NCBI RefSeq assembly: GCF_004005845.1
Contig: NZ_SADE01000001.1
Location: 930,001-994,000 of the forward strand
Origin: Hwanghaeella grinnelliae
GTDB lineage: Bacteria > Pseudomonadota > Alphaproteobacteria > UBA8366 > Aestuariispiraceae
Length of the DNA: 64,000 nucleotides
Direction: 5' to 3'
Positions 20,828 through 34,902 of the stretch are shown piece after piece (within the stretch, counting starts at the first letter, position 1; each line of letters opens with the position of its first letter). The position numbers were made by a program, and so were the translations under genes. The notes under the pieces are model-generated. The model was not told the DNA's origin and did not search any database. It saw nothing but the letters and a program-made list of their open reading frames with translations.

Positions 20828-22114
20828 ATGGATCGAAGCCTTCGCCGCACAGTCATCGCTGTATTTATTTTCTGCGCTGCCCTTCCTTTTTCGGGTTTCG
20901 CCGCGGAACGCTATGCGCTGGTCATTGGGAATTCCGCCTATTCGACGGCGCCATTGCCCAATCCGGTGAATGATGCAGCACTGATGGCGGAGACGCTTTC
21001 CGGATTGGGCTTCCGGGTGAAATTGCATACGGACCTCACGCGTCGGGACATGCGCCGCGCCATTGTCGATTTCGGGCAAGGATTGGAAGAAGCGCCGCCC
21101 AATTCCGTGGCGCTGATCTATTACGCCGGCCACGGCATCCGCATTGATGGGGAGAACTATCTGATCCCGGTGGATGCGGAGATATCCGACCCGTTGGACG
21201 TGAAGATCGAAGGGGTCCAGGCATCGACGGTTCTGGAAACGCTGCACCGGTATGAAGGCCTCAATATCGTGGTTCTGGACGCTTGCCGGAACAATCCGTT
21301 CGAAGGTGGCACTCGGTCGGGCGGCGGCGGTCTGGCGCGGATGGACGCGCCGACCGGCACGCTGGTCGCGTTCTCGACCGCGCCCGGCCGTGTCGCGGAA
21401 GACGGCGCAGGCAGCAACAGCCCTTATACGCGTGCGCTGGCCCGGTCGATGCAAATTCCGGGGTTGAAGGTGGAAGACGTTTTCAAGCGCGTCCGGATCG
21501 AAGTCTTGGAACGGACGGACAAACGCCAGGTGCCCTGGGAATCCTCATCGCTGATCGGCGATTTCTATTTCAGCGGCGAACCGGTCGCTGGTGAGACGCC
21601 GGTTATCCTGCCGGTTCAACCGCAACCGGTCCAGCCCGCAGCCGCGCCGCGCGCCTCGATCATTAGCGGGGATATCGACCGTGCCATGGCCGATCCTCTG
21701 CCCGGGCCGTCGGGTTTTTTGTTTCCCGACGCTCTCCAAACGGTTGATAAGATGCCGCCGGCAAAGCCTGCGCCGATCGACGGGGTGTGGCGGCTGGACA
21801 TTACCGGCGGCACGCGGTTCAGGGTCGATCGCGGCCGGATTTACACCGTGGACGGTTATCACCTGCTGCCGGCGACATCGGTATCGCCCGGCAAGATCAC
21901 CGGCCATAGCCTGAAACGGAACAAGGCGGGTTCCTATACCGGCTATGATGAGACGATTGCCGGGCCGATCTTTTTCACCCTGCAACCCGACATGACCATG
22001 AAGATTATCGGCGACGGCGTCGCGGTCGATTTCGAAAGCCGAATGACCCTGATTGCCGCGGACGACCCGGCGGCTTTCGAGGAGGAACTGCTGGCGGTGC
22101 GGGCGGGGCAGTAA
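20828..22114 (+). CDS. Secreted caspase family (peptidase C14) protein
   Basis: A 428-residue protein with a Sec signal peptide (residues 1-25, ending GFA-AE). The caspase-like p20 fold covers about 27-240. The catalytic dyad is present: His102 in YYAGHGIR and Cys153 in VVLDACRNNPF. RYALVIGNSAY and LIPVDAEI are family landmarks. The C-terminal part (about 300-420, GVWRLDITGG, then a beta-rich stretch) is unassigned and may be a binding module. Bacterial members of this type are found in periplasmic or surface settings, with unknown substrates. The gene is alone, followed 54 bases later by rimO. Confidence 0.88.
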   Translation: MDRSLRRTVIAVFIFCAALPFSGFAAERYALVIGNSAYSTAPLPNPVNDAALMAETLSGLGFRVKLHTDLTRRDMRRAIVDFGQGLEEAPPNSVALIYYAGHGIRIDGENYLIPVDAEISDPLDVKIEGVQASTVLETLHRYEGLNIVVLDACRNNPFEGGTRSGGGGLARMDAPTGTLVAFSTAPGRVAEDGAGSNSPYTRALARSMQIPGLKVEDVFKRVRIEVLERTDKRQVPWESSSLIGDFYFSGEPVAGETPVILPVQPQPVQPAAAPRASIISGDIDRAMADPLPGPSGFLFPDALQTVDKMPPAKPAPIDGVWRLDITGGTRFRVDRGRIYTVDGYHLLPATSVSPGKITGHSLKRNKAGSYTGYDETIAGPIFFTLQPDMTMKIIGDGVAVDFESRMTLIAADDPAAFEEELLAVRAGQ

Positions 22115-25784: not shown

Positions 25785-25925
25785 CTGACGTTCCTCCCAA
25801 AAGACTATTTATTTGCGGAACAGACTAGGGAGTAGGGGGGCGGCGGGCAAGATATGCACGTGCCGGCTTTTCACCTTGGGGCCTGCCGTGAGAGACTTTC
25901 GGAAAGGGAACGGGAGGAGGTTAGC

Positions 25926-26732
25926 GTGGTTGCTTCGGTGGAAATAACGGATGCGGAATTCGCTGCCTATGAGCGCGATGGTGTCGTCTGCCTGCGGGAT
26001 GTCTTCAGCTCTGATTGGATCGACTTGATGCGCGGCGCGGTGGAAGACGCGATGGCCGATCCGGGACCCCATGCCGAGGAATATGCGAATGCCGCGACGG
26101 GCGGACGGTTCTTCGGCGATTTGGACGTCTGGCAACGCCAACCCGCCTTTCGCAAATTCGTGATGGAAAGCCCCGCGGCGGAGGTCGCGGGACGCGTCAT
26201 GCGGTCAAAGACGTCGACCTTCTTCTACGATCATCTACTGGTGAAAGAAGGCGGCACGGCGGAACGCACGCCCTGGCATCAGGACCAACCCTATTGGGCG
26301 GTTTCCGGGCGGCAGGTCGCTTCCCTCTGGGTGCCGTTCGATTCCGTCCCGGAAGATGTCTCGGTCGAATATGTTGCCGGCAGCCATCTCTGGGAAGCGC
26401 ACAACCCCTATCACTTCGATGATGGCAGCCCGTATGAGGGAACCGACCTGCCGCCGATGCCCGATATCGAAGGGCACCGGGAAGACTACCGTATCCTCAC
26501 TTTCGCGCTGGAACCCGGCGATTGCCTCGTCTTCCAGGCCATGATTGTCCACGGCGCACCCGGCAACCCGCACAAGGGCCGCCGCCGGGCATTGGCGACA
26601 CGCTGGCTCGGCGACGACGCGCGCTACCTGAAACGAAAAGGGGAGGTCTCGATCCCGACCACCGATCCCGGTTTCGCAGATGGGGAGCGGTATCGGGGCG
26701 AGAGTTTTCCGTTGGTTTGGCGTTCGAAATAG
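25926..26732 (+). CDS. Phytanoyl-CoA dioxygenase (PhyH) family protein
   Basis: A 268-residue Fe(II)/2-oxoglutarate dioxygenase. The metal triad is readable as His118-x-Asp120 in TPWHQDQPYW and His209 in IVHGAPGNP, and Arg220 in KGRRRALATRW is a likely 2-oxoglutarate ligand. I chose a GTG start at 25926 because GGAGG sits 5 bases ahead of it; an upstream ATG at 25854 would add 24 residues without a ribosome site. Family members hydroxylate small polar substrates as well as acyl-CoA; PhnY of phosphonate breakdown is one. Downstream lies a remnant of a PhnZ-like gene, which makes a phosphonate role worth considering. Confidence 0.85.
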   Translation: MVASVEITDAEFAAYERDGVVCLRDVFSSDWIDLMRGAVEDAMADPGPHAEEYANAATGGRFFGDLDVWQRQPAFRKFVMESPAAEVAGRVMRSKTSTFFYDHLLVKEGGTAERTPWHQDQPYWAVSGRQVASLWVPFDSVPEDVSVEYVAGSHLWEAHNPYHFDDGSPYEGTDLPPMPDIEGHREDYRILTFALEPGDCLVFQAMIVHGAPGNPHKGRRRALATRWLGDDARYLKRKGEVSIPTTDPGFADGERYRGESFPLVWRSK

Positions 26733-26945: not shown

Positions 26946-27866
26946 TTACGCTGCTGAATGGCGACCCTCTTTCTCACGACCTTCTTGCTCAATGGCTTCG
27001 GCGATAAGGGCTAGCCCCGCCAAACGACGCTCGGATAATCGAGGATGGTGACATAGGGACCAGTCGATACCCGGTTGCTCGGTATTGAGTTCAGCCAGTG
27101 ATACGCGACCCTGTTGCGCGGCTTCGTCGACCGCCCATCGTGGAAGCACCGTCGTGCCTTGACCGGCCTCGATCATCGTAATGATCGAGGGCAGGGACTC
27201 GAGACGCAAAATCTTGGCAGGGACGACCGAGGCGGGGCGGAACAGTTTCTCGAATTCGAAGCCGGGTTGCGGCCGGAAGGAATACGAAAGGTAGGTTCGC
27301 GAAACGAACCAATCTGCCGTCACACTTTGCCCCGCTTCCGGCGCGTCAGGCGGCAAGACACCGACAAGGCGGTCGTGGAAAATGTGGCGCGCGGCAAGAC
27401 CGGGCCCAGGGACACCAGCCGTCAGGAAGCAGTCAGCCTCTTGGTTCATAACCGCGCTTTGCAACTCGCTAGGCCGCAACTGCACCAGTTCGATGCGCAG
27501 ATTGGGCTCTTGCACCGCCAGCTTGGCAACAGCGTCAGGCAGCCAGGACATCCGCTCGCTCACCCCTATGGCAAAGCGAAGGGCTTCGCTGGTGTCGCGC
27601 GAAAGCCAGATCGCGTCAGCCTCGGCGTCTGAAAGGGACTTCTCGGTAGATTTCCCGATGGTTGCAAGATGTTCACCCGCCGATGTCAGAGAGACGGAAT
27701 TACCGGTTTTGGTAATTAGAGAAATTCCGAGGCGGCGTTCGGCCTCCCGTATCTGATGACTTGCCGCCGGTTGGCTAAGGCCCAAAGCGCTTGCCGCAAG
27801 TCCGAGTTTCTTGTGTTCGCTAAGCGCTGTGAGAAGTCGGAAGTGGCGCCGGTCCAAGTATGCCAT
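26946..27866 (-). CDS. LysR-family transcriptional regulator
   Basis: A 306-residue LysR protein. The winged helix-turn-helix is at residues 1-60 (RRHFRLLTALSEHKKLGL, then GLSQPAASHQIREAERRLG), and the effector-binding domain covers about 90-295. It faces the 2OG-oxygenase gene across a 163-base region that holds a long interrupted palindrome at 27924-27960. It is therefore the likely regulator of the oxygenase and M24 genes. The gene ends just after the HD-gene remnant region. Confidence 0.92.
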   Translation of the reverse strand: MAYLDRRHFRLLTALSEHKKLGLAASALGLSQPAASHQIREAERRLGISLITKTGNSVSLTSAGEHLATIGKSTEKSLSDAEADAIWLSRDTSEALRFAIGVSERMSWLPDAVAKLAVQEPNLRIELVQLRPSELQSAVMNQEADCFLTAGVPGPGLAARHIFHDRLVGVLPPDAPEAGQSVTADWFVSRTYLSYSFRPQPGFEFEKLFRPASVVPAKILRLESLPSIITMIEAGQGTTVLPRWAVDEAAQQGRVSLAELNTEQPGIDWSLCHHPRLSERRLAGLALIAEAIEQEGREKEGRHSAA

Positions 27867-27960: not shown

Positions 27961-28029
27961 GAACATTGAATTGGAATTCTCGGCCTTTTGGTCACATACA
28001 TCAGGCTGTTCTTGGCATGGAGGCAGATG

Positions 28030-28917
28030 ATGAAAGTTGCAGCGACGATAGACCCTCGGGTTGAAGAAAACCCGGATTCCGCACTTTCGGATATCGTCGA
28101 TCTTGCCCGTTATCCGCTTCATGATCCGGAAAGCGGTGTCTTGCGTTCGGTGATCAACAAGGTGCGAGAAGACCTGGAAAAAGACGGTTGCGCGCGCATT
28201 CCTGCCTTTATTGAATCAGCGGCTCATAGCGCGCTGACAGATGAAACCAACCGCCTCGCGGATAAGGCCTATTTCATTACCAATGAATTTACGCCGTACG
28301 GAACGGGCGCCAAGGACGGCTTTCCTGACGATCATCCTCAGCGTCGCTTGCAGACCTCGAGCAATGGCTTTGTGGCGGGCGACATGATCGGCGAGGAGAC
28401 GATGCTCAAGCGTCTCTATCGCAATAATTCATTCAAGGAATTTATAAGTCGGTGCCTGGGCAAAGACGAAATCCACCATTTTGCGGATCCGATGCGGAAT
28501 TGCGTGGTCAATGTGATGAAGGATGACACGACGCTTGCTTGGCACTTTGACGCCAACGAATTCATCGTGAGCCTGATGACCCGCGCGCCTCAAGGGGGCG
28601 GTGCATTCGAGTATTGCCCCAACATTCGCAGTAAGGGTTCCGAGAATTACGACCGGGTACAAAATGTGCTGGACGGTAAAAGCGGCGAGGTGAAGCAGCT
28701 CTTTCTGTCTATCGGCGATCTTCAGCTCTTCACCGGACGCTACTCGCTGCACCGGGTGGGGCACACGCAGGGCGACCGGCACACGGTCTTGTTCGGATTC
28801 TCGGAGCAGCCTGGATATATCGGCGCGCTTGAAAGTACCCGGCTTGGATACGGCCGCGTGACCCAAATGCATATCGACGCCGAAAAACGCCGTCACGATG
28901 ACGGCCTGGCCGGTTGA
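28030..28917 (+). CDS. Fe(II)/2-oxoglutarate-type oxygenase, related to the HalD/BesD-ArpA group
   Basis: A 295-residue protein with a cupin-like core. The motif LAWHFDANEF gives His172-x-Asp174, and SLHRVGHTQGDRHT gives His241 plus an arginine likely to bind 2-oxoglutarate. Halogenases of the BesD group have Gly in place of the Asp, so this member should hydroxylate rather than halogenate. The start at 28030 is preferred: GGAGG lies 6 bases upstream. It leads an operon with the M24 family gene (90-base gap) and faces the LysR gene. The substrate is unknown; free amino acids are the usual substrates of the halogenase relatives. Confidence 0.75.
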   Translation: MKVAATIDPRVEENPDSALSDIVDLARYPLHDPESGVLRSVINKVREDLEKDGCARIPAFIESAAHSALTDETNRLADKAYFITNEFTPYGTGAKDGFPDDHPQRRLQTSSNGFVAGDMIGEETMLKRLYRNNSFKEFISRCLGKDEIHHFADPMRNCVVNVMKDDTTLAWHFDANEFIVSLMTRAPQGGGAFEYCPNIRSKGSENYDRVQNVLDGKSGEVKQLFLSIGDLQLFTGRYSLHRVGHTQGDRHTVLFGFSEQPGYIGALESTRLGYGRVTQMHIDAEKRRHDDGLAG

Positions 28918-29007
28918 TCCACAAACGCGCGGTCGTGCCTGTCTTTCACGATCCTCTGTCTTTCATGATGGGGGCGACCATTGCTTTATTCGAAAGGGAA
29001 GATGCAG

Positions 29008-30252
29008 ATGGCGAGTCTCGTGCATCAGGCTGCGGAAAACTATGCAACGCTTTCCATGGAAGAAGAGCAGGCAATCGGCCTGCGACGGCTTCGGCGAGTG
29101 CGAGAGCAAGCCGCTCACTATCGGTTGTCGGCGGTCATTCTGTTCGACCCCGTCAATATTCGTTATGCAACCGGCGCCCGTAACATGCAGGTCTATTCAG
29201 CGCGCAATCCCGCGCGTTTCGTGTTCATCCCGGTTCAGGGCCCGGTCGTCCTGTTCGAATATCGTGCCTGCGAGCATCTGTCGGCTCACCTGGATACGAT
29301 CGATGAGATCCGGCCCGCTCAACCGATCATGCCTCTGCATTCCGGGTATAAGCACGTGCGTCATCAACAGGACTTCGTTGCGGCGATCGAAGAACTCGTG
29401 GCGCAGCATGGCGTTAATGGTCGACGGATCGGTATCGAGGCGACGACGACAGGCGCTGTTCTTGCCTTGGCCAATGCGGGTTTCGAGGTTATGGACGCCC
29501 AAATTCCGGTTGAACGGGCGAGAGCCCTGAAGGTGCCGGGCGAGATCGACATGATCCGGTCGTCGCTGCGCCTGACGGAAGCGGCTGTCCGTGAGATGGA
29601 AGAGGCGCTGGTGCCGGGGGTCTCGGAGAACGAGCTGTGGTCGCGGCTGCACCAGAAGCTTATTTCCGGCGGAGGGGACTACATTGAAACACGGCTCCTG
29701 ACGTCAGGTTCGCATACGAACCCATGGTTCCAAGAGACGTCGGAAAAGATCATCAATGCCGGCGACTTGGTTGCTTTCGATACCGATGCGGTGGGCTGCT
29801 ATGGGTACTACAGTGACTTTTCGCGGACATTTCTCGCAGGCGACGGTCCGGCCTCTCCGGCGCAGCGCACGCTCTACGCCTTGGCTCAGGAACAGATCGA
29901 AACAAATATCGAGCTCTTGCGCGCCGGCGTCGCGTTCCGTGAGTATTCTGAAAAGGCGTGGCCGATCCCGCACCCCTATCAAAAGCATCGCTATCTGGCT
30001 GTTTTGCATGGCTGCGGCATGACAGGGGAATACCCGATTGTCTCACATGCCGGGGACTGGGAGGCCGTAGGCCACGACGATGACGAAGTGTTCCTGCCCG
30101 GCATGACCGTGTGCGTGGAGAGCTTCATCGGACACGAAGACGGCGGCGAAGGCGTGAAACTGGAAGAACAGGTCCTCATCACGAATGATGGGGTTGAGCG
30201 GCTTTCCACCTATGGCTACTGCGACCGGCTTTCCGCCTGCCAACGTGCCTAG
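29008..30252 (+). CDS. M24 family protein close to the DMSP lyase DddP, with one key residue changed
   Basis: A 414-residue pita-bread fold protein. The metal ligands line up with DddP: Asp258 and Asp260 (FDTD), Asp270 (SDFSR), His334 (LHGCG), Glu371 (CVES) and Glu386 (VKLEEQ). The spacings between the first four are the same as those I recall for DddP. Other matching blocks are FDPVNIRYAT, YIETRLLTSG and THTNPWFQE-like text. At the place of the DddP catalytic base (Asp377, six residues after the ligand His) there is Gly340. It may be a DddP relative with another substrate, or a Xaa-Pro peptidase. The start at 29008 has GGA eight bases upstream; ATG at 29002 is possible. Confidence 0.8.
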   Translation: MASLVHQAAENYATLSMEEEQAIGLRRLRRVREQAAHYRLSAVILFDPVNIRYATGARNMQVYSARNPARFVFIPVQGPVVLFEYRACEHLSAHLDTIDEIRPAQPIMPLHSGYKHVRHQQDFVAAIEELVAQHGVNGRRIGIEATTTGAVLALANAGFEVMDAQIPVERARALKVPGEIDMIRSSLRLTEAAVREMEEALVPGVSENELWSRLHQKLISGGGDYIETRLLTSGSHTNPWFQETSEKIINAGDLVAFDTDAVGCYGYYSDFSRTFLAGDGPASPAQRTLYALAQEQIETNIELLRAGVAFREYSEKAWPIPHPYQKHRYLAVLHGCGMTGEYPIVSHAGDWEAVGHDDDEVFLPGMTVCVESFIGHEDGGEGVKLEEQVLITNDGVERLSTYGYCDRLSACQRA

Positions 30253-30385: not shown

Positions 30386-31003
30386 TCAGGCCACCCGGCT
30401 GCTGATCTGCATCGAACTTTGCGGGGAGAGGCAATTGGCGACGGCCTGCCGGTAGTCCTGGATGCCGGAACGGCGGTTGGCCAAGGGCATGCGGCTCATG
30501 TCGTCGCGGCGGGCGAGCGCGACGGCAGCGCTCCAGCTTTCGTGGCGCTCGAACTGTTGGCGTTCCTTTTCGCCCATGGGGCCGCCCAATTCGGCCAGCG
30601 CTCGGAAAGCCTCATCGCTCAGCCTGTCCCTATATCCCTTGTCCAGGGCGAACAGCCAGCGTTTAGCGATCTGATGCAGACGGACCGGCTCGGAAATCGC
30701 CGGCGGGAAGTATCGCGCGAGCCAAGCCGCACCGATCTTCTCACTGCACCGGGGCGCGGCGGATGCGGCGTCCGGGCCCTGATGTTCAAGCAGGATCTTG
30801 CCGGTATCGTGCAGCAGGGCGGTCACGACCTCATGGTTCGGGGCGTTTTCCCGTCGGGCCAGTTCCGCTGTCTGAAGACTGTGATCGAGCAGCGACAGGC
30901 CATGTTCAGCCGCGACCGGCTCCCCGGCTTCGGTCAGCCAGGCGAGCAGCCGGTCGGAGAACCGCAGGGGGTCGCCCGCATATTCCGGTGCGTTCGCGTA
31001 CAT
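30386..31003 (-). CDS. PhnZ-like HD-domain oxygenase family protein, one metal ligand missing
   Basis: A 205-residue HD-domain protein like PhnZ/TmpB, the mixed-valence di-iron oxygenases of phosphonate breakdown. His41 (LLDHSLQTA), His65-Asp66 (LLHDTGK), His110 (RLHQIAKRW) and Asp167/168 are in place, and LGGPMGEKERQQFE is characteristic. The histidine usually seen before EKxGAxWL is Ser88, and the Tyr and Glu that precede the first His in PhnZ are Ala and His. A changed metal site or another reaction is likely. I chose the start at 31003 (GAGG upstream) over 31024. The gene ends convergent to the M24 gene. Confidence 0.75.
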   Translation of the reverse strand: MYANAPEYAGDPLRFSDRLLAWLTEAGEPVAAEHGLSLLDHSLQTAELARRENAPNHEVVTALLHDTGKILLEHQGPDAASAAPRCSEKIGAAWLARYFPPAISEPVRLHQIAKRWLFALDKGYRDRLSDEAFRALAELGGPMGEKERQQFERHESWSAAVALARRDDMSRMPLANRRSGIQDYRQAVANCLSPQSSMQISSRVA

Positions 31004-31228
31004 GGATTGGTGCCTCGATACCATTGCCAGGGTGAAAAATCTGCTACGCTACATGGTAGGAAATAGTATCAACGACTTTACGTCACTTTTTGGTAATTAC
31101 TGTTACGTTTCTGTTTCAATACTTGAAAATCCACGACCCTTTGCTTGCTTTCCGTGTGCAGTGCAATAAAGCGCAGCTAATTCGCACGTTCGATTTATAG
31201 ATCAATTTGAAGTTTGTTGAAGGCTGCG

Positions 31229-31693
31229 TCAGAAGCCGGCGATCCGCTGCAAAAGGGCAGGGTTGTCCCATTGCGGCTGGCGGTCTTCCAGAAGGATACG
31301 ATGCGCGGTTATGTCGGTCGCGGCTTCAGGCGGGCCGCTCATCGTGATCTGCAGCCAGCGGGCGACCAGTTGATTGTTCAAATCGTCGATGACGAGCGAT
31401 GCGGTCAGTTCAAGGGCTTCGCGGTCGGGTGGGGCCAGCGCGTGCAGATAGTCCGCCAGCGCATCGGGAAGCAAAATCCATTTATCGGGAACGTAGCGAA
31501 GCTCAACGGTGATCGTCTGCCCGCTTGAGGAGGTGAGCTTGCCCGACAGGTGGCACAGATAGTCGGTCTGTGGAATCGGGTTCGGCGTCGTCGCGATGCT
31601 GGATTGGCGCAGCACGCGTTCGTCATCGGTTTCCAGATCCGCATCCGTTTCCAGGGTCAGGGGCGTGGCCTTGTCTGTCTTTGTGCCTGTCAT
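31229..31693 (-). CDS. Unknown protein at the end of the flagellar operon
   Basis: A 154-residue cytoplasmic-looking protein that I do not recognise. It has an acidic, disordered start (about 1-40), then a compact region with LCHLSGKLTSSSGQTITVEL, WILLPDALADYLHAL and TASLVIDDLNNQLVARWLQI. Its ATG overlaps the stop of the FliK-like gene as ATGA, so it is translated from the same message and is the last gene of the leftward flagellar run. A role in assembly or export control is suggested only by that position. Confidence 0.7.
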   Translation of the reverse strand: MTGTKTDKATPLTLETDADLETDDERVLRQSSIATTPNPIPQTDYLCHLSGKLTSSSGQTITVELRYVPDKWILLPDALADYLHALAPPDREALELTASLVIDDLNNQLVARWLQITMSGPPEAATDITAHRILLEDRQPQWDNPALLQRIAGF

Positions 31694-34600
31694 ATACTCA
31701 AATCCTCGTGGGTATCGTCGGGCCCGCGTGTGCCCCCAAATTCGTTGCCGATCGCGTTCAGGTCGAAACTCTTCACCACATGATAACCGACCTGACCGGT
31801 CATTCCCAAAGCAGTGATCGTATCCGCGAACAGGGCTTGGATTTCTCGCCGCATGTCCTGCGGCAGGGCACTATGGGTTCGGATCATCAGGTCGATATGT
31901 TTCTTGTCGACGAGGTTGTCGAACTGGAATGGGCCGAGGCGGGTGAAATTCACCTCGATGATGAAACGTTGGCCCGGTTTGGCTTTGTCCTTGTCATCGT
32001 CCTGCCCCTGCTGATCGCGATCGCGCAGATAGAGTTTCAAGGCCTCGATTTCGCCCCCGACGGAGACGGGCAGTTGATAGCTGCGCCACTCGCCGCCGGT
32101 ACTGTCGACGGCTTTGCCCCGCATCACCCCGAAGTCCCGGTTCAATTTGTCTGTCGAACCGCGCCGGGTGCGTTCCAAGGTTCTGACTGCATCGCCGCCC
32201 AGCCAGCGGGGCGCGCCGCCGAAACGGACCGCCTGCAACAGGAACAGCAGGGCCGTACCCAATTGCGGCCCGGCGCTGGGGATCAGGGATTGCACGACCT
32301 GTTGGGCGGTTGCCGGGTCGGATTGCTGCAGCAGGGCGACGGCTTCCTGCAATGCCTGGAATGGCCGTCCGGCGGCCTGGCGGGCAGCGGCGGGACCCGT
32401 ATTTGTACCGCCGGTCGCGGGCGCGTTCGGCTCCGCTAGGAATTCCAGGACCAATGTGGTGCCGGTTGGGACGGGTCGTGCCCCGACCGGAACGCTGAAA
32501 TGGCCCGACGGCGTGCGAACCAGCGCCGCGCCCGACGCGGTCTCGCCGATCACCGACCCGATCAATACCGGCAAACCGGGTGCGGCGGAATTGCTCAAAC
32601 CCGCCAGTGGCGGCGCGGGTGTGCCCGGCGGCAGGATGGTGGCGAGGCGGATTGGAACCGTTGATCCCGCCGCGATGGTTCCCGGCTTTGTGATGCCCGA
32701 TTGAGCGGTCCCGGTGATGGTCGCGGCGGTGTTTCCGGTCGGGATATGTGCGCCCGCGCCGGGGTTTCCTATGGTCCCGTTGGTCGCGCCCGACACCGTT
32801 GATGGCGTTGCGCCTGTTTGCCCCGGGGGAATGAAACCAGTTGTTCCGGATTGTTGCGCGCCGAAGCTGATCTGCACGGTTTGCAGCGGCCCTTGCAGCC
32901 CAGCCGACAGCGTCAGGGCGGCGCCCTGGGGGACAGGGAAGGGGAGCCTTAGGGTAGCCGCGCCGACGGTCGTTTTGACCGTCACTGTTCCGGACTGTTG
33001 GGCCCCAGTGGCTTGGGCCGCTGCAGGGACCGACGGCGTCGATGTGGCGACGATGCCAGGGATTGTTTGGCCCGCGAACAATATCCGGCTCAGCGAGGGG
33101 GAGGTGCTGATCACCGTCGCGGAAACAGGTTGCTGCGGCAATGCGTTGCCCGTCGGTTGGGGAACGGATTGGCCCCCTGAAGGTTGAACAACGGGTGGTT
33201 GGACCGTTGGTGTCAACCCGCCGGTGGGTGCTGGTGCTGCCGTGCCCGTGCCGGTTGGAAGTGGTGGTGGGGTGCTGGGCGGTTGTGTGCTGGGCGGAGG
33301 CGCTGGCGGTGTCGATGGTGCCGCCGGTGTTGCAGGTGCCGCCGGTGTTGCAGGTGTTGTGGGTGTGGCCGTTGGCGCCGGTGGTGGTGTTGACGTTGAA
33401 GACGGCGTTGGCGGCGGCGTTGACGTTTGTTGTGGCGTTGGGACTGAACTAGGCGTTGAGGACGTCGCTGCCGTGCCTGATGTCGCTGGCGGTGCCGATG
33501 GTGATTGCCCAGGTGTTTGTTGGGCGGTCGTTTGTTGGGCGGTCGTTTGTTGTGCGGTCGTGGGTTGGGCAGGCGCTGATTGACCCGACGACGGTTGAGG
33601 CGCCGGCGCTGTGGGAGATGCCGCGGGCGAGGACGATGGCTGTGCCGCTGAGGGCGCTGGCGGCGTTGAGGTTGAAGACGGCGTTGGTGCTGGGGTTGAC
33701 GCTGAAGACGGCGTTGGCGGCGGCGTTGACGTTTGTTGTGGCGTTGGGGCTGAGCCAGGCGTTGAGGGCGTCGCTGTGGTGCCTGATGTCGCTGGCGGTA
33801 CCGATGGTGATTGCCCAGGTGTTTGTTGGGCGGGCGTTGATTGGCCTGACGCCGGTTGAGGCGCCGGCGCTGTTGGGGCGGCCGTGGGGGATGACGATGG
33901 CTGTGCCGCTGAGGGCGCTGGCGGCGTTGAAGTTGAAGGCAGAGTTGGTTGGGGCAGCGGTGCTGTTTGCGCAGGCTGCTGTGGCGCTGGTGTTGCTGGT
34001 GTTTGTTGGGGCGGTGCCGATGCTTGGTTGGACGGCGGCGCCGTTTGCTGCGCCGGCGGAGAAACCGGCTGGGTCGGCGCTTGTGGGGGAGTCGGTTGTG
34101 CCTGTGCGGGCTGCTGTGTTGTCGCCGGTTGCTGTTGGGCGTTGGAGGGCGGCGCCGCGCGCGGTGCGCTGGAAGGTTGAGCGGGAGTTTGTTGAGCGGG
34201 AGTTTGTTGAACGGGAGTTTGTTGAGCGGGCGGCGTCGAGGATGAGGACGGCGCGGAAGGTTGCGTCGATGGCAATGGCGCCGGGCTTTGAGGTGCCGGG
34301 CTTTGAGATGCTGTGGATTGCGGCGTCGCCGGTTGTTGCGCCGATGACTGCGGGGCAGCGCTTTGCGGTGTTATGGGTGGTGGCGTGGCCGATTGCGGGG
34401 ATTGAGGTGCGGCGGATTGCGGCGTTTGCGGTTGTGTGGTCGCTGGTGGATTAACCGCCGTTGCGGTTACGGTCGCGCCCTGGGTCAATGTTGTGACCAC
34501 GGCGGGCGGTCGCGCCGTGGACGCGGTTTGGCTTGGCGCTTGGCCGCCGGTCGCTCCCGTCGCTCCCCCTGGTTTTGGTTGGGCTTGAGATTGGGTTTGT

Positions 34601-34902
34601 CCTGGCGTGAGGGCCAGCTTTACTTGGCCGTCGCCGGTGCCGGCTTGCAGTGTGATCTGACTGTTGACCGGGACTTCGGCAGTGGTTTGCAGGGTTACGG
34701 CGCCGCTTGGGGTCTGAATGGTGATTTGGCCCGTTGTGGGCGTTCCGGTGACCGTGCCCTGGATCGGTGTGCCCTTGGCAAGGGCCTGCGTGACACCCGT
34801 TTCGGCGCGCAGAACGGCGGCAGGGGTAGGGGGTTGCCCGGCCGGTTTAGGCTGGGCGGATTGGTTTTGTCCGCTGGGCGGCAGGTTGATGGACGAACTC
34901 AT
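31690..34902 (-). CDS. Large FliK-like protein with a Pro/Thr/Ser/Gln-rich middle
   Basis: A 1070-residue protein with three parts. Residues 1-110 are a folded-looking head (AVLRAETGVTQALAKGT, ITIQTPSGAVTLQTTAEV). Residues about 110-620 are very rich in Pro, Thr, Ser, Ala and Gln, including short repeats (TPAQQ, TAQQT) and a long in-frame internal duplication. Residues about 620-1070 contain repeated beta segments and a C-terminal domain (LSVGGEIEALKLYL-like, FIIEVNFTRLGPFQFDNLV) like the FliK C-terminal fold. It would be a hook-length or export ruler type protein, but a more usual FliK lies at 49430. Start at 34902 with GAGGTGA upstream. Confidence 0.75.
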   Translation of the reverse strand: MSSSINLPPSGQNQSAQPKPAGQPPTPAAVLRAETGVTQALAKGTPIQGTVTGTPTTGQITIQTPSGAVTLQTTAEVPVNSQITLQAGTGDGQVKLALTPGQTQSQAQPKPGGATGATGGQAPSQTASTARPPAVVTTLTQGATVTATAVNPPATTQPQTPQSAAPQSPQSATPPPITPQSAAPQSSAQQPATPQSTASQSPAPQSPAPLPSTQPSAPSSSSTPPAQQTPVQQTPAQQTPAQPSSAPRAAPPSNAQQQPATTQQPAQAQPTPPQAPTQPVSPPAQQTAPPSNQASAPPQQTPATPAPQQPAQTAPLPQPTLPSTSTPPAPSAAQPSSSPTAAPTAPAPQPASGQSTPAQQTPGQSPSVPPATSGTTATPSTPGSAPTPQQTSTPPPTPSSASTPAPTPSSTSTPPAPSAAQPSSSPAASPTAPAPQPSSGQSAPAQPTTAQQTTAQQTTAQQTPGQSPSAPPATSGTAATSSTPSSVPTPQQTSTPPPTPSSTSTPPPAPTATPTTPATPAAPATPAAPSTPPAPPPSTQPPSTPPPLPTGTGTAAPAPTGGLTPTVQPPVVQPSGGQSVPQPTGNALPQQPVSATVISTSPSLSRILFAGQTIPGIVATSTPSVPAAAQATGAQQSGTVTVKTTVGAATLRLPFPVPQGAALTLSAGLQGPLQTVQISFGAQQSGTTGFIPPGQTGATPSTVSGATNGTIGNPGAGAHIPTGNTAATITGTAQSGITKPGTIAAGSTVPIRLATILPPGTPAPPLAGLSNSAAPGLPVLIGSVIGETASGAALVRTPSGHFSVPVGARPVPTGTTLVLEFLAEPNAPATGGTNTGPAAARQAAGRPFQALQEAVALLQQSDPATAQQVVQSLIPSAGPQLGTALLFLLQAVRFGGAPRWLGGDAVRTLERTRRGSTDKLNRDFGVMRGKAVDSTGGEWRSYQLPVSVGGEIEALKLYLRDRDQQGQDDDKDKAKPGQRFIIEVNFTRLGPFQFDNLVDKKHIDLMIRTHSALPQDMRREIQALFADTITALGMTGQVGYHVVKSFDLNAIGNEFGGTRGPDDTHEDLSI
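33410..33846 (-). repeat. In-frame direct duplication inside the large FliK-like gene, period 306 bp
   Basis: Blocks such as TGACGTTTGTTGTGG occur at 33421 and 33727, and GTGATTGCCC at 33501 and 33807, both 306 bases (102 codons) apart. The two units, about 33410-33540 and 33716-33846, differ by scattered substitutions. Shorter repeats are nested around them. Confidence 0.8.

Follow-up and report, generated by a model that had tools for sequence, protein, structure and literature searches.

A candidate betaine-catabolic pair in Hwanghaeella grinnelliae: a glycine-type DddP-like M24 protein and its HalD-family oxygenase neighbor

The closest described system to the gene studied here is the DMSP lyase DddP. 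For RdDddP, PMC4108388 prints six metal ligands (Asp295, Asp297, Asp307, His371, Glu406, and Glu421) together with Asp377 and Tyr366. Asp377 is said there to be invariant in DddP lyases and is proposed to be the base, with Tyr366 named as an alternative, and PMC5395565 cites Wang et al. (2015) for Asp377 as the base. According to PMC5395565, DddP has six ligands versus five in the peptidases, with Asp and Phe in place of two His residues of the peptidases.

We analyzed a stretch of 64,000 nucleotides from H. grinnelliae, referred to as the window. A sequence-only reading had proposed that one of its genes encodes a DddP-like enzyme that keeps all six ligands and has Gly340 at the position of Asp377, and this is borne out by the comparisons below.

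The M24 gene and the DddP metal site

The gene and the residues discussed are as follows. Rows are aligned homologs named by their residue in the Asp377 column (D, G, A, or V).

29008..30252, + strand: P0001, a Gly-type DddP-like M24 enzyme of 414 aa with Creatinase_N and Peptidase_M24 domains (open reading frame, domain search, alignment, tree, structure model)
29203..29205, + strand: Arg66, at DddP His98; Arg in 49/49 G/A, 2/66 D, and 1/3 V rows (alignment)
29728..29730, + strand: Phe241, opposite the prolidase PH-motif His (3q6d) and DddP Phe278 (alignment)
29809..29811, + strand: Tyr268, at DddP Cys305 and two residues ahead of ligand Asp270; Tyr in 46/49 G/A rows (alignment)
29992..29994, + strand: Tyr329, at DddP Tyr366; Tyr in 118/118 rows (alignment)
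30025..30027, + strand: Gly340 (codon GGG), at DddP Asp377 (alignment with RlDddP)

The open reading frame starts with ATG, and an alternative TTG lies at 28981. Because alignments with close orthologs begin at residue 1 of P0001 (query 1–413 for L037 and 1–410 for L038), we favor the ATG at 29008. Both domains are over their Pfam cut-offs, with 38.8 bits for Creatinase_N and 107.8 bits for Peptidase_M24.

Alignment with RlDddP paired the six ligands of P0001 (Asp258, Asp260, Asp270, His334, Glu371, and Glu386) with Asp295, Asp297, Asp307, His371, Glu406, and Glu421. The ligand spacings are 2, 10, 64, 37, and 15 in P0001 versus 2, 10, 64, 35, and 15 in RlDddP; the sequence-only reading was correct that spacings are identical but counted three of them, where there are four out of five. 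Flanking blocks also match DddP as it had claimed, many being common to both. Gly340 is six residues after His334 and lies opposite Asp377. Because Asn occupies the Gly340 column of the phmmer alignment in PDB entry 4s01, which is a D377N mutant, the register at this position is sure.

The best solved relatives of P0001 found with phmmer were RdDddP (E = 2.5e-72) and RlDddP (E about 1e-69), both at 34–35% identity, versus E = 2.7e-14 for the best prolidase. A structure model built from P0001 and 15 relatives had a pLDDT of 86.4 and a pTM of 0.86, with residues 62–65 forming a low-confidence loop in this monomer model. Comparison of the model with four DddP entries gave Z scores of 44.8–45.1 and rmsd values of 2.1–2.2 over 404–406 aligned residues. 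For the same model, Z was at most 34.4 with prolidases, 32.5 with the ectoine hydrolase DoeA, and 32.2 with creatinase, and DddP was ranked first by Foldseek too. By neither sequence nor fold is P0001 closer to peptidases than to DddP. All 16 members of alignment A1 match the DddP model (best E = 8.6e-100), but P0001 scores 322 bits on this model (NCBIfam NF043017), below the cut-off of 600.

A glycine-type group of DddP-like proteins

We collected homologs that resemble P0001 and the DddP model; the sources were related genomes, a class-wide sample, contigs of named genomes, plasmids, and a DddP-model scan. Removal of short and near-identical rows reduced 177 blast hits to 119; the window gene among these was swapped for P0001 and two PDB sequences were added. 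Two prolidase-like rows from the genome of P0001 itself (L006 and L004) and the D-type row L198_2118 were dropped before the tree was made, leaving 118 rows (P0001, the two PDB sequences, and 115 from loci). The Asp377 column holds Asp in 66 of these, Gly in 48, Val in three, and Ala in one, proportions that are no census because the homologs were sampled by likeness to P0001 and the DddP model. Ligands are intact in 48/48 G rows, the sixth, DddP-type ligand is kept by all 49 G/A rows, and the sole ligand departure among the 118 rows is a Gly for Asp297 in L078. Val is a third state at the column, found in L022, L034, and L200 (3/118 rows) with the ligands intact.

With the motif columns excluded, an unrooted tree placed 46 G rows and the A row in a starred clade with 99% support. 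P0001 lies in this 47-row clade with Mesorhizobium (80 and 79% identity), a Kiloniellaceae MAG (76%), Halomonas, Amphritea, Caballeronia, and an actinobacterial MAG. It does not fall with DddP. RdDddP and RlDddP, the only proven DddP proteins in the tree, sit with L171–L173 in a five-row clade among the D rows. The residue at the Asp377 column changes four times on the tree, versus a mean of 41 when shuffled. The branch parting all 49 G/A rows from the rest, again in the unrooted tree, has a support of only 21. The H. grinnelliae genome holds a G-type (50% identity) and a D-type (45%) paralog of P0001. The D-type paralog is the best DddP-model match in this genome, at 429 bits versus the cut-off of 600; matches at or above that cut-off occurred in 6 of the 289 genomes of the class sample.

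Several other positions separate the two types. Position 66, which is Arg throughout the G/A rows, is His in 64/66 D rows. Position 225 is Tyr or Phe in 48/49 G/A rows and Trp in 66/66 D rows, and position 63 is Tyr or Phe in 44/49 and Trp in 63/66, respectively. Position 268 is Cys in 57/66 D rows, and position 271 is Phe in 40/49 G/A rows and Ile in 50/66 D rows. We also considered whether an Asp reaches the active site from another loop, which would undo the proposal that the base is missing. A scan of residues marking the clade appears to speak against this, since it gave no conserved acid that DddP lacks: Glu84, Glu144, and Glu198 of P0001 also have an acidic residue, Asp or Glu, opposite them in RlDddP. 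Arg66, Tyr225, and Tyr268 are the remaining polar changes that mark the clade, and His376 marks the nearest subclade of P0001.

Identity to RlDddP is at least 40% in 0/48 G rows versus 54/65 D rows, and identity to RdDddP is at least 40% in 2/48 versus 56/65. Together, these sequence comparisons indicate that the Gly-type branch is a distinct group of predicted enzymes, apart from proven DddP and from most other Asp-bearing DddP-like proteins. P0001 itself is predicted to be a functional enzyme. What had been described as one odd enzyme does have Gly340, but it is not singular; it belongs to a group that is fixed for Gly and has its own gene neighbors.

Oxygenase, importer, and regulator neighbors

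The genes around the M24 gene in the window include the following.

25854-26732, + strand: PhyH-family (PF05721) oxygenase; another 2OG-type gene, no more than 3 kb from the HalD-family gene (domain search)
26946..27866, − strand: LysR-type regulator, divergent (domain search, blast)
27988..28917, + strand: HalD-family (PF23169) Fe(II)/2-oxoglutarate oxygenase with HxD intact, 90 bases upstream of the M24 gene
30386-31024, − strand: HD-domain protein, similar to the PhnZ/TmpB/Phn-HD oxygenase families but below their cut-offs; gene convergent with M24

The HalD-family gene scores 49.9 bits on PF23169 versus a cut-off of 26. Its start codon is uncertain, with a TTG listed and internal ATGs nearby. 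HalD-type halogenases carry Gly or Ala in place of the facial-triad Asp. In the window gene the motif is HFD, with the Asp present, and HxD and a conserved Arg, taken as the putative 2OG ligand, are found in 16/16 HalD partners examined (14 of G/A and two of D rows). Because HxD is kept in all 16, these partners are of the hydroxylase type, and we rejected a halogenase identity for the window gene. A search for solved relatives of the window HalD protein found no close one (best E = 0.013, Halogenase B), and its structure model (pLDDT 41) was too poor to use.

We scored a HalD gene as adjacent when it was on the same strand as the M24 gene and within 600 bases. It was directly upstream in 12/49 G/A, 2/66 D, and 0/3 V rows of the tree. 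Fisher's test of G/A against D rows gave p = 0.0008, a value that overstates the association because the tree provides only one independent contrast. For the other 37/49 G/A rows no HalD was found within 600 bases on the same strand, some of these loci having short flanks. Counting the window, 14 G/A loci have HalD directly upstream (the 12 tree rows plus L214 and L215), and they span alpha-, beta-, and gammaproteobacteria and one actinobacterial MAG. They include Halomonas borealis, Amphritea, Caballeronia, a Rhodospirillaceae genome (L117, L163), members of the class of the window (L115, L116) and of the Halomonas order (L214, L215), and the actinobacterial MAG (L140/L218). In H. borealis, each of the four M24 matches (E ≤ 1e-60) adjoins its own HalD gene. 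HalD is also upstream in L120, where the M24 gene is cut at a contig edge and the Asp377 column is not covered. The D-type M24 genes with a HalD neighbor are L168 (a Pseudomonas plasmid) and L121 (a 28% match).

Across 16 HalD–M24 pairs, the identity matrices of the two proteins correlate with r = 0.832, and 0/2000 permutations were as high; shared genome history also contributes to this correlation. The closest orthologs of P0001 (76–80%; two from Mesorhizobium and one from the Kiloniellaceae MAG) have no HalD at the locus, and elsewhere in these three genomes the HalD relatives are 29 and 31% matches, or none. Because these orthologs lack HalD at the locus, the M24 enzyme is able to work in the absence of HalD. 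Our guess is that in genomes without HalD the substrate is perhaps imported already in the right form.

Importer genes of the betaine kind occur next to several of the G-type M24 genes. M24 is immediately followed by a BCCT gene in L040 and L156, and in L041 a BCCT gene just precedes HalD. OpuAC comes straight after M24 in L053, L153, and L154. In L214 it is one gene farther along, and in L116, L155, and L215 it is on the opposite strand at a distance of at most 5 kb; the assignments in L116, L214, and L215 were made by blast to the other loci. In L155, a methylmalonate-semialdehyde dehydrogenase gene (673 bits versus a cut-off of 448.5) directly follows M24. The Sinorhizobium and Shinella G-type loci have glycine-betaine ABC genes by annotation, and the Mesorhizobium M24 genes adjoin an SBP_bac_5 transporter gene. 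Most G-type loci inspected from the 22-row GMTGEYPYL branch were without such partners among the marker genes searched, and a domain search of eight neighbors in the window found no betaine importer. A LysR gene related to the one near the window M24 gene occurs in the two Mesorhizobium loci, in Halomonas (L040, L153), in Amphritea, and in the actinobacterial MAG (L218).

Three plasmid loci, L055, L056, and L054 (Sinorhizobium pSymA and a Shinella plasmid), have the G-type M24 gene inside a large cluster of quaternary-amine type. This cluster also encodes an MttB-family methyltransferase, a SoxA/GcvT-like FAD enzyme, an MR/MLE enzyme, an Ldh-type dehydrogenase, and a GlxA regulator. On a Rhodobacteraceae M382 plasmid (L169), a HalD-family gene occurs with an ABC importer, an MttB-family gene, and an FAD oxidoreductase, with no M24 gene among the listed features.

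The PhyH and HD-domain genes were rejected as members of a conserved module. Blast of the first locus set returned a single relative, which matches the HD gene at 32% and adjoins a D-type M24 gene in L017, a locus of the same genus. The HD gene scores 106, 96, and 91 bits versus cut-offs of 214.6, 300, and 300. Farther out, the gene at 20828-22114 (+ strand) encodes a caspase-like (Peptidase_C14) protein and immediately precedes a MiaB-like radical SAM gene, and a 1070-aa open reading frame very rich in Pro, Thr, Ser, and Gln (31690-34902, − strand) adjoins open reading frames that look FlhG- and FlhF-like by eye.

Predicted function, alternatives, and known systems

We put at about even the chance that P0001 and the oxygenase form a pair for betaine catabolism, the oxygenase modifying a solute that P0001 cleaves without an Asp base. 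The solute would be an imported betaine, either a quaternary ammonium or a sulfonium compound. The oxygenase would hydroxylate or oxidatively demethylate it and would act first, although this order is a guess. P0001 might then bind the carboxylate of the product at the metals and Arg66 and break a C–N or C–S bond (which of the two is also a guess) by means of metal-activated water and Tyr329. Because there is no Asp377, alpha-proton removal by Asp as in DddP is unavailable to P0001, and its catalysis would involve no such step. The base or nucleophile left would be a metal-bound hydroxide and Tyr329, perhaps with Tyr268. PhnY/PhnZ is a precedent for such a pairing, in which a 2OG hydroxylase is matched with a two-iron enzyme that performs the cleavage. 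Our guesses at the substrate (proline betaine, a carnitine-like compound, homobetaine, or S-methylmethionine) are not separable. The sequence-only reading had also suggested another onium compound as substrate, which is made plausible by the HalD and BCCT or OpuAC neighbors in several loci.

A broader idea is that this is an imported-betaine route new to description, used in several lineages, in which a HalD-type hydroxylase is followed by Asp-independent, two-metal cleavage by a Gly-type DddP fold. We advance it tentatively. Neither a Gly-type DddP nor a HalD–M24 pair was found in the titles or abstract openings among the matches listed from the open PubMed Central literature.

The chief rival, which we regard as unlikely, is an amide hydrolase for small molecules, similar to creatinase or DoeA. 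A metal-bound hydroxide would attack an amide or amidine carbon in a substrate that resembles a betaine, with the oxygenase acting on another compound or at a later step. DoeA and creatinase are M24 enzymes that act on small osmolyte-like molecules, and in fold rank they follow the prolidases (Z 32). M24 peptidases hydrolyze C–N bonds, as stated in PMC5395565. In Sinorhizobium and Shinella G-type loci, M24 is directly followed by an isochorismatase/biuret-hydrolase-like gene, and in L116 a CN_hydrolase gene is 2 kb from M24 on the other strand; however, such amidase-like neighbors belong to another subclade and are not beside P0001. Also against this rival, P0001 scores 50.2 and 43.4 bits on the NCBIfam DoeA models, below the cut-offs of 575 and 613, has Phe241 for the first peptidase His, and keeps the six-ligand DddP-type site.

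Retained lyase activity on DMSP or DMSOP, with Tyr329 or Tyr268 as the base, seems improbable to us for P0001. The naming of Tyr366 as an alternative base in PMC4108388, the invariance of Tyr329, and the DddP fold as nearest match would fit this. However, the DddP-model score of P0001 is far under the cut-off, almost no G row reaches 40% identity to either solved DddP, P0001 is outside their clade, and several positions differ as a set. The earlier proposal that an enzyme without the base would not work as a DMSP lyase in the known way stands in that the proposed Asp step is unavailable, but the base role of Asp377 is itself a proposal.

We give little credence to an ordinary Xaa-Pro peptidase of family M24, the other activity suggested earlier. 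The Pfam domains and the label "Xaa-Pro peptidase family protein" on relatives are in line with it. By the DddP register Gly340 stands at the second peptidase His, and a gapped phmmer alignment to 3q6d could place His347 there, a residue that is His in 41/49 G/A rows. The first substrate-binding His is absent, with Phe241 opposite the His of 3q6d, the sixth ligand Asp260 is present, and both E values (2.7e-14 versus 2.5e-72) and Z scores (34 versus 45) favor DddP, so that the protein is not found within typical peptidases. A dead or decaying paralog or a one-codon sequencing error would explain the loss of a proposed catalytic residue, but this can be set aside along with chance mutation, given the conservation of Gly across 48/118 rows with all 48 ligand sets intact and a dN of 0.134 and dS of 2.30 (NG86; dS saturated) against the Mesorhizobium ortholog.

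If the betaine-pair reading is true, many DddP-like genes would encode something other than DMSP lyases, with a large group that keeps the metal site and lacks the proposed base. This group would point to unknown betaine chemistry in bacteria from soil, from symbioses, and from the sea. At their degenerate 3' cores, the dddP primers printed in PMC6309047 match the P0001 gene exactly, with five and six mismatches over the full primer lengths. Because of these matching cores, dddP counts from amplicons or loose homology could include Gly-type genes, which may not make dimethyl sulfide. A 40% identity filter, like that in the BLASTp step of PMC6309047, would exclude almost all of these genes, and those left could be removed by checking for Asp377. 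The group could also serve as a natural test of Asp377 as the base.

With DddP (RdDddP, 4b28; RlDddP, 4rzy), P0001 shares the fold, the two-domain architecture, the six ligands, Tyr366, and many flanking blocks. By contrast, Asp377, His98, Cys305, Trp262, and Trp95 of DddP are Gly, Arg, Tyr, Tyr, and Tyr in P0001, which at 34–35% identity lies in another clade and below the model cut-off. M24 prolidases and aminopeptidase P have the pita-bread fold and shared metal ligands in common with P0001, whereas P0001 has the sixth ligand and a Phe for the PH-motif His. DoeA and creatinase also share the fold, but at just 18–20% identity in the structural matches, and P0001 is far below the DoeA cut-offs. 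The oxygenase neighbor has PF23169 in common with HalD/BesD-type 2OG enzymes, but its triad Asp makes a hydroxylase-type rather than a halogenase-type site.
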